Origin: Lentisphaerota bacterium
GTDB lineage: Bacteria > Verrucomicrobiota > Lentisphaeria > Victivallales > Victivallaceae
Direction of reading: 5' to 3'
DNA: 64,000 nucleotides
NCBI GenBank assembly: GCA_015061745.1
Contig: SUWB01000008.1
Span: 22,382 to 86,381, forward strand
Of the stretch, positions 11,374 to 64,000 are shown piece by piece. Below the pieces are notes generated by a model that was not told where the DNA came from, ran no database searches, and saw nothing but the letters and a program-made list of their open reading frames with translations. The translations under genes were made by a program, and so were the position numbers. How positions within the stretch are numbered: the stretch's first letter is position 1; the number at the start of each line of letters is the position of its first letter.

Positions 11374-11532
11374 AACAAAAGGGATGACTCAAAAAAAGAT
11401 GTTTTTTTTGCAAAACAGGAGTAAAAATTTCCTGCGAAACAGCGGCTTGATACGACGTAAATATTCATAAGCATCTTTGTCAGATTTTTAATAATCCGGT
11501 AAAATTAAGGACACGGATATATTACAGGTTTG

Positions 11533-11601
11533 AAAAAAAATGAAAAAATTTGAAAAAATGATAAAAAAACATTTGACTTTTTTCCTGTTGAGGTATAAAG
11601 T
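11533..11601 (+). promoter_or_regulatory. Phased A-tract curved DNA plus sigma-70-type promoter
   Basis: A-tracts begin at 11533, 11543, 11553, 11563; TTGACT 11573-11578; TATAAAGTATAA from 11594. Confidence 0.7.
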
Positions 11602-11705
11602 ATAACGGAAACCGGAACCCCCGCCGGGGATGGGGCACCGGTTTCAATGTAAAAAAACGAATCTCCGGATAAACAGTTGAATTTTTTTAGAAAGGAAATG
11701 GATTT

Positions 11706-12452
11706 ATGATTGCTGTATGGGTAGCTGTAATGGTCGTCGGTCTTATTGCAATGATTGTTTGCAGTAAAAAACAGAAAACCAATCCCGCGATGCAGCCCGT
11801 CGCCCTGGGTGTGTTTCTCGTGGTGATCGTCGCTGCTGTGATGCTGATGATTGAAACCAATATTTTCGGCGGAAGCAACTCCGCCATTATGGAAAGCGAA
11901 CTTGCTTTCCTTGCTTCCCGCGGTCACGCTGCCGGTGCTCACCTTGCCAAGGTCGCTCCCGGAAAGAAGGTCGTTATTGTTGCTGAACCCAACTACGACA
12001 AGAGCACCTACACCAAGGATCTGATCGAACAGCTCAAAAAGGCTTACGGTTCTGACAATGTTGTTGTCGAACCTATCGTCGTTCCCGGTGCCAACGAAGA
12101 AAATGCTATGCCTATCGAAGAACTTATGAAAGCTAAAGACTTCGACAAGGCTCTGGCCAATCACAGTGACGCCGGCGTCGTTGTTTCTCTCGTCGGTCTG
12201 CCCAACAATGCTGCCCGTATGAAAGCCTTTGGAGCCAAAGGTCCCACCTTCTTCCTGTTCAGCACCGGTATGGGAACCGGCAAATTTGTTGCCGCTCAGA
12301 TGAAAAAAGGCACCATCGCCGGTGTCATCGTTCCCAATCCCAAGGCTGACTATGAAGCCAAGGCTCCCAAAGATCCTGCAAAGGCTTTTGCCATCCGCTT
12401 TGTCCTGGTCACCAAGGACAATCTCGAAGCTCACAAGCAGTTCTTTGAATAA
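11706..12452 (+). CDS. N-terminally membrane-anchored protein of unknown function
   Basis: Two N-terminal TM segments; soluble C-terminal domain AKVAPGKKVVIVAEPNYD...; no family recognised. Confidence 0.7.
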   Translation: MIAVWVAVMVVGLIAMIVCSKKQKTNPAMQPVALGVFLVVIVAAVMLMIETNIFGGSNSAIMESELAFLASRGHAAGAHLAKVAPGKKVVIVAEPNYDKSTYTKDLIEQLKKAYGSDNVVVEPIVVPGANEENAMPIEELMKAKDFDKALANHSDAGVVVSLVGLPNNAARMKAFGAKGPTFFLFSTGMGTGKFVAAQMKKGTIAGVIVPNPKADYEAKAPKDPAKAFAIRFVLVTKDNLEAHKQFFE

Positions 12453-12598: not shown

Positions 12599-13936
12599 AT
12601 GGGTTCAGAAGATACTAAAAAAAGTTCATCATCTCCCCGGAAACGTTCAGAGGGGAGTGAATTTGCATCTTCTTTGCACTCCTATCTCAACAATGTAGGC
12701 AGGATTTGCGGCAATGATCAAACAGGACAAAGTGATCTGACCGCATCCATTGATGCAACTCAGAAGGAAATCGAATCCGAACTTGTCCGTTTCGGCTTTA
12801 CAGCGTTGGAGTTTTGCCGTATACTGGATGACTGCTGCTCCGCCGGAAGTTCTCCGGAAGATTATTTTCTGAGCTCATCTCTGAGGCAGGGTGCGGAGGT
12901 TCTGCCCCAGGATATGATGGAAAAACTCAAGAATTGGAAAGAGGAGATCCACACTGCTCACCAGGCCCTTGAAAAACGTTTCTCCGCCGGGAAGGACTCC
13001 CAAAAAGAACGTACCCATCTGGCAGAAATCCTTTTGCTTTACCGCCCCAATGGAGTCCTTGTTGATGAACTTTGTCAGACTGCTGTCGGTTATTCAAAAC
13101 TTGATTCCGGCAATACCGGACTCGCCGAAACCCGCTTTCTTATGACAAACACAGAGCTTGAGGATTCTGTTTCCCGCCTGAACCAGCTGTGTAAAAAACT
13201 TGAACGGCTCCATACCCGTATGGCGGAAACAAATTTGCGCCTCGTCATCAGTATCGCCAATAAATACCGGGAATGCAATGTCCCGCTCAACGACATTATT
13301 CAAGAGGGAAATCTGGGGCTGATGGTGGCGGTGCAGCGTTTTGATTTCAATCTTGGCAATCGTTTTTCCACCTATGCCGGGTGGTGGATCAAGCATTATA
13401 TTCTGCGTGCAGTGGCCGAACAATCCCGGGTGGTCCGGCTGCCGCTGCGCATTATTCAGTCGATTCAAAATATGAACCGGGCTGAACAGCGTTTTATTCA
13501 GAATGAAGGCAGAGAGCCGGATAACGCCGAACTCGCAGCCGTTCTTGAAATGCCGGTGGCACGGGTCAGTGCTATGCGAAAAATGGCTTCTCAAAGTATT
13601 TCGCTGCAGGCTTCTATCAATGCCGACGACAGCGGTCAGACTTTTGAAGATCTTATTGCCGGTGACGAAAATAATGAACCCTGGCGGAACTATGCCAGAA
13701 GACTTCTTTACGAAAAACTTTATGAAATGTTGAACAATCTGCCGGAACGTGAGCGACAGATCATCGTCTACCGCTTCGGACTTTGCGGAGAAAAAGCTTT
13801 GCAGCTGTGCGAGATCAGTGCCCGTTTGAATCTTTCACGGGAACGGGTCAGACAGTTGGAAAATAAGGTTATGACTCAATTGCGTTCCAAAGAGTACCTG
13901 AAATTCATTGACGGTCTCTCTCATATAGAAGACTAA
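12599..13936 (+). CDS. Divergent RNA polymerase sigma-70 family factor
   Basis: NLRLVISIANKY...DIIQEGNLGLMVAVQRFDF...FSTYAGWWIKHYILRAVAEQSRVVRLP...SRERVRQLENKVMTQLR. Confidence 0.9.
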   Translation: MGSEDTKKSSSSPRKRSEGSEFASSLHSYLNNVGRICGNDQTGQSDLTASIDATQKEIESELVRFGFTALEFCRILDDCCSAGSSPEDYFLSSSLRQGAEVLPQDMMEKLKNWKEEIHTAHQALEKRFSAGKDSQKERTHLAEILLLYRPNGVLVDELCQTAVGYSKLDSGNTGLAETRFLMTNTELEDSVSRLNQLCKKLERLHTRMAETNLRLVISIANKYRECNVPLNDIIQEGNLGLMVAVQRFDFNLGNRFSTYAGWWIKHYILRAVAEQSRVVRLPLRIIQSIQNMNRAEQRFIQNEGREPDNAELAAVLEMPVARVSAMRKMASQSISLQASINADDSGQTFEDLIAGDENNEPWRNYARRLLYEKLYEMLNNLPERERQIIVYRFGLCGEKALQLCEISARLNLSRERVRQLENKVMTQLRSKEYLKFIDGLSHIED

Positions 13937-15184: not shown

Positions 15185-17034
15185 TGAACCCTATTCACTT
15201 TTCTTATCGGATCGCCGCTGCGGTCCCCCAACTCAAACCGGGTGATTGCCCGGCCAATACAAATGAGATCATCAACTGCTGTCAAAAGGCTGCCGACCGG
15301 GGAGCGGCCCTGCTCCTGACGCCGGAGCTTTCTATTACGGGAGCCGGATGCGGAGACCTTTTTAATTCAGCCGGATTCAGATCTGGCACTCTGGCAGCGG
15401 TGGAAAAACTAAAAGAGTTCACCCGGACTCTTAAAATGGGCGTTATTGCCGGATTCCCCCTGTGGCACAGAGGAAAAATTTTTAATTCGGCAGCACTTTT
15501 TTACAAGGGCCGTATTGCAGGGATCTGCTGCAAAAGTTCCGTTGCCAACGACCTTTTTACTTCAGGACAGAAACTTGATACAGAGACGATCTTCCTTTCC
15601 GGTGATGAAGTCCCCGTGTCAGATAAGCTGATCTTTGAAAGCGGAGAATTGCGTTTCTCTGTTGTCATCGGCGAAGATATGCTTCTTCCGGGGAACTTCA
15701 CTCCGGCTCTTGCCGCTGCCGGAGCGCAGATCATTTTCAATCCTTCTGCCGCAGCAGAGCTGACTCTGGTTTCCCGGGAACGGATGGATTTCCTCAAACA
15801 TACCAGCGGGGCACTTACTGCAGCTGTGGTTACGGCCAATGCCGGTATCGGAGAACCGGGGAGCGATTTTATCTGCGGCGGCAGAAGTGCTGTTTTCAAC
15901 AACGGAAGAATTGATGCACAGTGCGCTCCTCTTTCATTTGAAAGTACCCTTGTTTTTGCAGATATATTTCCGCAACGCCTTGAATACCGGCGGCTGCGGA
16001 AAAAGGAAAACAATCCCTTTATCAGGGAAGAAAAATGTTCTTTTATCACTTTGCCTGCCCTGCCCTTTTCTCCTGATCTTGAGGAGTTTCATCTGGATTC
16101 CAATCCCTTTGTCCCTGCCGACCGGGAGGAACTTCTCACCCGCTGCCGGGAGGTACTGGCGATCCAGAGTGCCGCTCTGGCACGCCGGATGCAATGTACC
16201 CGGTCAAAGAAAATGGTGATCGGCCTTTCCGGCGGTCTGGATTCCACCTGGGCCTTTCTGGTTTGTATTGAGTGCTGCAAAAAGCTCGGTCTTCCCTTTG
16301 ATACCATTTGTGCTGTGACGATGCCCGGATTCGGCACTTCAGACAGGACACGCAGCAATGCTGAAAAAATGGCTGAACTTTTTGGAGCCGAATTGCGTAT
16401 CATTCCCATTGCTGATGCTGTCAAAGGACACTTCAAAGATATCGGCCACGATCCGGAAGTCAAAGATGTGACCTATGAAAACAGTCAGGCCCGGGAACGG
16501 ACTCAGATCCTTATGGATCTCGCCAATGAACTTTCAGGAATTGTCATCGGAACAGGCGATCTTTCTGAAATTGCCCTCGGCTGGTGTACCTATAACGGCG
16601 ATCAGATGTCGATGTACGGTGTCAATGGTTCCATTCCCAAAACTCTGATGCGTCATCTGGTCACATTTTATGCTGAGTTTGTGGCACTGGACGCCCAAGG
16701 TGCTTTGCTGAAAGACGTAGTGGATACTCCTGTTTCTCCGGAGCTGCTCCCGGGAGCCCAGCATACGGAAGAACTGGTGGGCAGCTATGATCTGCACGAT
16801 TTCTTTATCTGGCATACTGTGCAGTACGGTGCTGACAGTGCGTTTCTGCAAAAGGCTGCGGAAAAGGTGTTCAAAGGAGTTTTTGCGGCTCAGGAAATAG
16901 CTTCAGCCCTCAAGGTTTTCAATACCAGGTTCCGCCGTCAGCAGTTCAAGCGCAATCCGATGCCCGACGGTGCCAAAGCGGGGACTCTTTCCCTGTCGCC
17001 CCGGGGGGATTGGAATATCCCGTCAGATTGTTGA
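15184..17034 (+). CDS. nadE: Glutamine-dependent NAD+ synthetase
   Basis: N-terminal nitrilase-like domain; GLSGGLDSTWAFLV; GTGDLSEIALGWCTYNGDQMSMYGVNGSIPKTL. Confidence 0.93.
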   Translation: MNPIHFSYRIAAAVPQLKPGDCPANTNEIINCCQKAADRGAALLLTPELSITGAGCGDLFNSAGFRSGTLAAVEKLKEFTRTLKMGVIAGFPLWHRGKIFNSAALFYKGRIAGICCKSSVANDLFTSGQKLDTETIFLSGDEVPVSDKLIFESGELRFSVVIGEDMLLPGNFTPALAAAGAQIIFNPSAAAELTLVSRERMDFLKHTSGALTAAVVTANAGIGEPGSDFICGGRSAVFNNGRIDAQCAPLSFESTLVFADIFPQRLEYRRLRKKENNPFIREEKCSFITLPALPFSPDLEEFHLDSNPFVPADREELLTRCREVLAIQSAALARRMQCTRSKKMVIGLSGGLDSTWAFLVCIECCKKLGLPFDTICAVTMPGFGTSDRTRSNAEKMAELFGAELRIIPIADAVKGHFKDIGHDPEVKDVTYENSQARERTQILMDLANELSGIVIGTGDLSEIALGWCTYNGDQMSMYGVNGSIPKTLMRHLVTFYAEFVALDAQGALLKDVVDTPVSPELLPGAQHTEELVGSYDLHDFFIWHTVQYGADSAFLQKAAEKVFKGVFAAQEIASALKVFNTRFRRQQFKRNPMPDGAKAGTLSLSPRGDWNIPSDC

Positions 17035-22177: not shown

Positions 22178-23251
22178 ATGGCTTATGATTTCAATGCTGT
22201 GTGCAGCGGTTTTGCCGGTGCAGGAAAATTTGTTTCCGGAATCCCCTACGGTACCGGTCACATCAACGATACCTACAAAGTTGAAACCGATAAGAACACT
22301 CTGATCGTTCAGCGGGTCAACACCTCCATTTTCCGTCAGCCCGAAGAACTGATGGACAACTTTGTCCGGGTCACTTCTCATATCAGCAAAAAACTTGCCG
22401 GAACCGACTCTGCCGACAAGACTCTTTCTCCTTTGCGCAATGCCGAAGGAAAACCTTTCTTCCGCGATGCCGAAGGCAACTTCTGGCGCAGCTATATCTT
22501 TGTTGACAAAGCCCGCACCTATGATATTATCGAAAATGATACTCAGGCTTTTGAAGCTGCCGCCGCTTTCGGCAGATTCCAGAACTATCTGGCCGATATG
22601 GAAGGCCGTCTCTTTGAGACCATTCCCAACTTCCACCACACCGTGTCCCGTCTGGAAGCCCTCAAAGAAGCCATCGCCGCCGATAAGGTGGGACGTCTCA
22701 AAGAGGTGAGCCGGGAAGTCGATTTCGTTATGGCACGGGAAAAGGAATGCGGTCTGCTCCTCGATCTGCAGGCCAAAGGTGAGATCGTGGAACGCACCAC
22801 TCACAACGACACCAAGCTGAACAACGTGCTCATTGACGATGCCACCGGCAAAGGTATCTGCGTTATTGACCTTGACACGGTGATGCCCGGTCTGCCCCAT
22901 TACGATTTCGGCGATATGGTCCGTACCGGGACCAGTCCTGCTGCTGAAGACGAAACCGATCTTTCAAAGGTGCGTATGCGTTTTGAAATGTTTGAAGCTC
23001 TGCTCCGCGGTTATCTTTCAGCTGCCGGCAAGTTCCTCAATCCTCTGGAAAAATCTCTGCTGCCCTTCTCCGGCAAGCTCATCACTCTGGAAATCGGTAT
23101 CCGTTTCCTGACCGACTATCTTTCAGGCGACGTTTACTTCAAAACCAAACGCCCCGGCCACAACCTTGACCGCTGCCGTACCCAGCTGAAACTTGTATCT
23201 TCCATCGAAGAACAGTTCGATGCTATGCGCAAGCTGACCGATTCACTCTGA
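22178..23251 (+). CDS. Phosphotransferase (APH fold), N-acetylhexosamine kinase-like
   Basis: YGTGHINDTYKVET; THNDTKLNNVLIDDATGKGICVIDLDTVMPGLPHYDFGDMVR. Confidence 0.8.
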   Translation: MAYDFNAVCSGFAGAGKFVSGIPYGTGHINDTYKVETDKNTLIVQRVNTSIFRQPEELMDNFVRVTSHISKKLAGTDSADKTLSPLRNAEGKPFFRDAEGNFWRSYIFVDKARTYDIIENDTQAFEAAAAFGRFQNYLADMEGRLFETIPNFHHTVSRLEALKEAIAADKVGRLKEVSREVDFVMAREKECGLLLDLQAKGEIVERTTHNDTKLNNVLIDDATGKGICVIDLDTVMPGLPHYDFGDMVRTGTSPAAEDETDLSKVRMRFEMFEALLRGYLSAAGKFLNPLEKSLLPFSGKLITLEIGIRFLTDYLSGDVYFKTKRPGHNLDRCRTQLKLVSSIEEQFDAMRKLTDSL

Positions 23252-63871: not shown

Positions 63872-64000
63872 ATAATCGAGTAGGAGGCTGTCCATTATTT
63901 GGACAGCCGTCCTCTCACACCACCGTACGTGCCGTTCGGCATACGGCGGTTCAGTAACTTGAGTGCAGTTCATTATACCGGATGAAGATATCGTCATATC
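63872..64000 (-). mobile_element. 3' end of a group II intron (domains V and VI), truncated by window edge
   Basis: Minus strand GAACCGCCGTATGCCGAACGGCACGTACGGTGGT (34-nt D5, 63952-63919), then GAGGACGGCTGTCC...GGACAGCCTCCTACTCGATTAT (D6 and 3' end). Confidence 0.85.

Follow-up and report, generated by a model that had tools for sequence, protein, structure and literature searches.

A promoter-aligned array of helically phased A-tracts and a 5' hairpin upstream of a membrane-anchored protein gene of Victivallis

The gene considered here, which lies in a 64-kb stretch of a Victivallis genome (hereafter, the window; 64,000 nucleotides), is preceded by four A-tracts that start exactly 10 bp apart immediately upstream of a near-consensus promoter, and its predicted transcript begins with a hairpin. 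Both the array and the hairpin persist across the genus despite their changed letters and, judged from sequence comparison, are probably functional. We read the region as an extended UP-element or curved-DNA promoter combined with an ompA-like protective 5' stem, which would give constitutive high output of a membrane-anchored protein, and assign this reading a probability of roughly 0.7. The 3.1-Mb assembly was placed in Victivallis (Lentisphaerota), its named relatives being Lentisphaeria and Victivallis, including V. vadensis DSM 14823.

Results

Layout of the promoter region

The features on which the analysis is based are given below, with their source in brackets.

11477..11505, plus strand: second promoter-like site, TTGTCA-17-TAAAAT (promoter scan)
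11533..11540, plus strand: A-tract 1 (A8), centred at -71.5 from the predicted +1 (sequence, homolog alignment)
11543..11548, plus strand: A-tract 2 (A6), centred at -62.5 from the predicted +1 (sequence, homolog alignment)
11553..11558, plus strand: A-tract 3 (A6), centred at -52.5, distal UP subsite (sequence, homologs, subsite limits from PMC2613000)
11563..11569, plus strand: A-tract 4 (A7), centred at -42, proximal UP subsite (sequence, homologs, subsite limits from PMC2613000)
11573..11578, plus strand: -35 element TTGACT (sequence; TTGACT or TTGACA in most homologs of the genus)
11596..11601, plus strand: -10 element TAAAGT after a 17-bp spacer (sequence; TAAAGT kept in close homologs)
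11608, plus strand: predicted transcription start, +1 (from the position of the -10 element)
11608..11645, plus strand: predicted 5'-terminal RNA hairpin, GAAACCGG pairing with CCGGTTTC, with an inner CCCC/GGGG stem (folding)
11692..11696, plus strand: Shine-Dalgarno-like AAGGA, nine bases 5' of the ATG at 11706 (sequence)
11706..12452, plus strand: predicted 248-aa membrane-anchored protein with a periplasmic-binding-protein-like domain (structure prediction, Foldseek, codon index)

The A-tract starts given in a preliminary description of this DNA (11533, 11543, 11553 and 11563) are exact to the base, and TTGACT at 11573, the inverted repeat at 11608-11645 and the ATG at 11706 all lie where it had placed them. 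Its promoter was retained in the -35 element, while the -10 element was re-read as TAAAGT (11596-11601) and the start moved from 11606 to 11608. Several overlapping -10 candidates are found within TATAAAGTATAA. One of them, TATAAA (11594), was rejected, as it leaves a spacer of only 15 bp, and TAAAGT was chosen because it offers the standard 17-bp spacer and is kept in close relatives. This puts the predicted +1 at 11608, where the inverted repeat begins. A free promoter picker run on the window scored the upstream site at 11477-11505 slightly above the proximal one (10.3 vs 10.1), although the promoter scan picked no equivalent of the upstream site in the nearest relatives. The conserved proximal promoter, rather than the top-scoring site, was used for the window in the homolog comparisons.

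Two open reading frames that overlap these features were set aside. A small ORF of 21 aa (11540-11605) inside the A-tract array has no Shine-Dalgarno sequence before it and no equivalent in the near relatives that were read, and a 309-aa antisense ORF (11505-12434, minus strand) has a codon index of 0.49, as compared to 0.76 for the sense gene, and was taken as spurious. Further upstream, directly after a radical SAM gene, an A7-GATG-T8 inverted repeat (11391-11412), which may be a terminator without G+C pairs, is more strongly curved in the wedge model than any other 40-bp segment of the window.

Rarity and modelled curvature of the array

Within the 64-kb window, this is the only array of at least four A-tracts (at least A4) whose starts lie 10 or 11 bp apart; nine other stretches of the genome contain none, and dinucleotide shuffles of the intergenic region yield such an array at P=0.0007. 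A genome search for the same architecture, as the preliminary description had proposed, located the pattern of four A5 tracts at 10-bp intervals at two places in the 3.1-Mb genome. Curvature was modelled as a simplified sum of wedges; on this scale, the DNA upstream of the window gene falls in the top 0.4% of its own locus, that upstream of most homologs falls in the top 1% of their loci, and the A-tract region ranks fourth in the window for 40-bp segments.

Conservation of the helical register

When 26 Victivallis homologs were aligned on the -35 box, A/T tracts peaked every 10 bp, near -42, -52, -62 and -72, with weaker peaks further out and low occupancy between the peaks. Counted from the -35 box, a tract was found in 18 of the 26 homologs at -6, in 25 at -17, in 20 at -26 and in 19 at -36. 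Upstream identity among the homologs is mostly about 50%, and as the register persists in such diverged sequence, it is the register that is conserved and not the sequence. In a dereplicated set of 16 loci with less than 50% upstream identity, the coherent 10-bp component reached 124.5, as compared to 19.1±10.1 for dinucleotide shuffles (maximum of 61 in 2000), with a phase resultant of R=0.91; it should be noted that the homologs are related by descent, such that dereplication reduces this relatedness but leaves some of it, and the P-values are optimistic. The signal persists without the window sequence and under other tract definitions, an almost identical phase is obtained from plain A+T content (R=0.91), and T-tracts are in phase with A-tracts. 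Tracts beyond about -59 taken alone still give 79.9, as compared to 15.2±8.1 for shuffles. Order-level relatives show the same phase at a lower amplitude (4.7 per sequence, phase of 126 degrees).

In E. coli, the proximal UP subsite spans -45 to -37 and the distal one spans -58 to -45 (PMC2613000). Tracts 4 and 3, which cover -45 to -39 and -55 to -50 when counted from -35TTGACA-30, match these subsites. In the RpoA of this genome, all eight α-CTD positions that were compared are identical to those of E. coli, including R265, N268, N294, G296, K298, S299 and E302. The suggestion of a curved or UP-type promoter in the preliminary description thus gains support, at the level of sequence, from the conservation of promoter and tract register across the genus and from the intact α-CTD contact residues.

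The same register elsewhere in the genome

As genome background, we used 569 kb of stretches from the same genome. The register is shared by 54 strong promoters (192, as compared to 34.7±17.5 for shuffles) and is not significant for weak promoter matches in the same 569 kb. The window gene ranks sixth of 185 for in-phase amplitude, and the array is thus an extreme of a general architecture common to strong promoters of this genome, not peculiar to the window gene. In-phase amplitude correlates with codon index over 184 promoters (rho of 0.25, P=5e-4); within strong promoters alone, the correlation is not significant (rho of 0.14, P=0.30). The same pipeline applied to 200 kb of E. coli found no significant register, yet only nine promoters scored 9 or more there, making this comparison uninformative. 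Among the sampled promoters, that of 15309-16094 (minus strand) in locus L048, with a codon index of 0.81, carries one of the most strongly phased arrays.

The 5' hairpin

In the folded RNA, GAAACCGG (11608-11615) pairs with CCGGTTTC (11638-11645) and the inner CCCC pairs with GGGG. The leader beyond the hairpin is 60 nt long, in agreement with the approximate length first proposed. Taken alone, the window hairpin does not stand out against composition-matched shuffles of its GC-rich sequence (z=-1.33, p=0.11), while its energy of -20.3 kcal/mol is the lowest of 185 predicted 5' ends of the genome. Across the 26 homologs, the first 45 nt of the leaders form more stable structures than shuffles of the same segments do (mean z of -1.29, Wilcoxon 5e-7); at the 3' end of these leaders, the final 45 nt have a mean z of +0.35. 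Such a hairpin is not common to strong promoters in general, as 28 strong control promoters of the genome present a mean z of 0.01. Stem sequences are unrelated between subgroups of the genus while the structure is kept. By sequence comparison, the hairpin is thus conserved as a structure, not as a sequence, which favors the protective 5' stem put forward in the preliminary description.

A hairpin at the predicted 5' end, followed by a less structured leader with a ribosome-binding site, resembles the 5' stabilising stem-loop of the ompA type that was reportedly described by Emory in 1992 (cited in PMC3997798), although the offset of the hairpin varies among the relatives considered here and stabilisation is something that we infer. 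The offset from the predicted +1 is 0-2 nt in some loci, including the window (0-1 nt), and 5-9 nt in several relatives, in which strict 5'-terminal protection is weakened because the hairpin starts that far after the predicted +1. Direct 5'-end protection, which depends on a predicted start site, fits the window best and is less certain for the loci with longer offsets. RppH of B. subtilis requires at least two unpaired 5' nucleotides, and bla mRNA in E. coli becomes more stable when given a 5' hairpin, a structure known to hinder the conversion of 5' ends by RppH (PMC3997798).

Codon usage as a sign of expression

With seven ribosomal proteins of the same genome as reference, the codon adaptation index of the window gene is 0.758, within the range of the ribosomal proteins themselves (0.66-0.85, each left out in turn) and above the flanking genes (0.49-0.55). 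Encoded with background codons, this protein would be expected to reach 0.581±0.032, placing the window gene at z=5.4 above this expectation, and its index ranks 13th of 437 ORFs. Of the independent indications of high expression, such ribosomal-protein-level codon usage is the best that we have and, although it is read from sequence, is consistent with the very high expression that had been suspected. Another gene of the window (22178-23251) has a ribosomal-protein-level codon index of 0.76, about equal to that of the gene studied here.

The protein product and its surroundings

The product was initially described as membrane-anchored, and two N-terminal transmembrane helices with a conserved KKQKTNP loop are indeed predicted, followed by a domain of 190 residues that is modelled with high confidence (AF2 pLDDT of 91.6 and 94.1). 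Searches of Pfam, NCBIfam and PDB sequences yielded no significant family for the window protein; a Peripla_BP_6 profile matched in 1 of 32 homologs (1.1e-5), the window protein itself having no Peripla_BP match. Foldseek, run on residues 57-248, found type I periplasmic sugar-binding proteins (E of about 1e-4, probability of 1.00, TM-score of about 0.5 on the query). Residues 57-248 thus share the predicted fold of RbsB, AraP and XylFII, but the domain comprises about 190 aa rather than 270-320, shows 10-19% identity to them and is held in the membrane by two N-terminal helices. Based on the structural model, the product is a reduced, membrane-anchored relative or analogue of type I sugar-binding proteins.

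Of 34 genomes of the genus, 23 encode a homolog of the product, as do 42 of 60 relatives from across the order. V. vadensis DSM 14823 carries a member of the family, and no homolog was detected in several near-complete Victivallis genomes. The homolog of one genus member (L025) contains an in-frame TAA stop. The next gene downstream (12599-13936) encodes a sigma-70 family factor with regions 2-4; the four nearest relatives (L006-L009) retain such a sigma-70-like neighbour, but none was recognised in the others. Elsewhere in the window, positions 63875-63951 (minus strand) match the Rfam model of a group II catalytic intron (48.3 bits, above the gathering score).

Discussion

None of the individual elements is new: promoters preceded by phased A-tracts, UP elements and 5' stems that stabilise mRNA have all been described before. 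In the mechanism that we propose, RNA polymerase with the housekeeping sigma factor would bind TTGACT-17-TAAAGT, and at the proximal and distal UP subsites the two α-CTDs would meet the narrow minor grooves of the A-tracts at -42 and -52. The tracts at -62 and -72, on the same helical face, may offer alternative α-CTD contacts or bend the upstream DNA towards the polymerase. The transcript would start at or beside the hairpin, hiding its 5' end from end-dependent decay and lengthening the life of the mRNA. Promoter and hairpin together would then yield a high level of a membrane-anchored protein with a periplasmic-binding-protein-like domain, whose abundance and ligand, like the start site, α-CTD binding, real curvature and mRNA stabilisation, we infer.

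As in UP elements of the rrnB P1 type (PMC2613000), A/T-rich tracts are found at both subsites on one helical face. The array described here differs in that it continues in phase to about -75 as separate A-tracts and in that α-CTD binding is predicted. In Synechocystis, helically phased A-tracts occur genome-wide in promoters, in phase with the start site, and are tied to supercoiling (PMC9825172). The register found here is likewise genome-wide and aligned with the core promoter, but belongs to another phylum, was measured upstream of the -35 element and is strongest at a highly codon-biased gene family.

It is conceivable, if on balance unlikely, that the array acts mainly through global curvature, wrapping or a response to supercoiling, as part of a genome-wide structural code, and not through α-CTD contacts. 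The extension of the register past the UP-element region, the phase that T-tracts share with A-tracts and the link of the Synechocystis tracts to supercoiling (PMC9825172) would all agree with this, whereas the peaks of occupancy at both UP subsites (18/26 proximal, 25/26 distal) and the integrity of all checked α-CTD DNA contacts speak for contact with the polymerase. The two mechanisms are not mutually exclusive. Expression would be regulated, not constitutive, were the 5' inverted repeat a DNA operator for a regulator, or a riboswitch or attenuator. The repeat does overlap the start site, where the nearest relatives have an ACCGGAA motif in common, but stem sequences are unrelated across the genus while the structure is kept, no U-run follows the stem, and an Rfam search for a riboswitch gave nothing at the gathering score and only chance-level matches at a relaxed threshold, such that we regard this as improbable.

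Phased A-tracts also attract nucleoid proteins that prefer curved AT-rich DNA, and the array could accordingly serve as a silencing site for such a protein. Ribosomal-protein-level codon usage, a near-consensus promoter and the association of the register with a high codon index across the genome make this very hard to reconcile with the data. A chance origin of both array and hairpin in AT-rich intergenic DNA agrees with the window hairpin considered by itself (p=0.11 vs shuffles), but is contradicted by the conservation of register and structure in diverged homologs, unless relatedness explains everything, and can barely be credited. The extended UP-element or curved-DNA promoter with a protective 5' stem thus remains our preferred reading.

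On a wider scale, we would suggest, tentatively and at somewhat less than even odds, that in Victivallis, and perhaps in all Lentisphaerota, helically phased A/T tracts locked to the -35 element act throughout the genome as a determinant of promoter strength, selection bearing on their register, not on their sequence, across several helical turns, and that a lineage-specific envelope protein found across the order, with a domain like that of periplasmic-binding proteins, ranks among the most abundant proteins of these bacteria. The locus provides an unusually clear new case of promoter-aligned A-tract register in a phylum other than that of Synechocystis, and a clear natural case of helical register being conserved during sequence turnover, which bears on the role of A-tracts in bacterial promoters. 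It does so in Lentisphaerota, a phylum with little promoter biology, and draws attention to a family of envelope proteins in gut Lentisphaerota that is uncharacterised and probably abundant.
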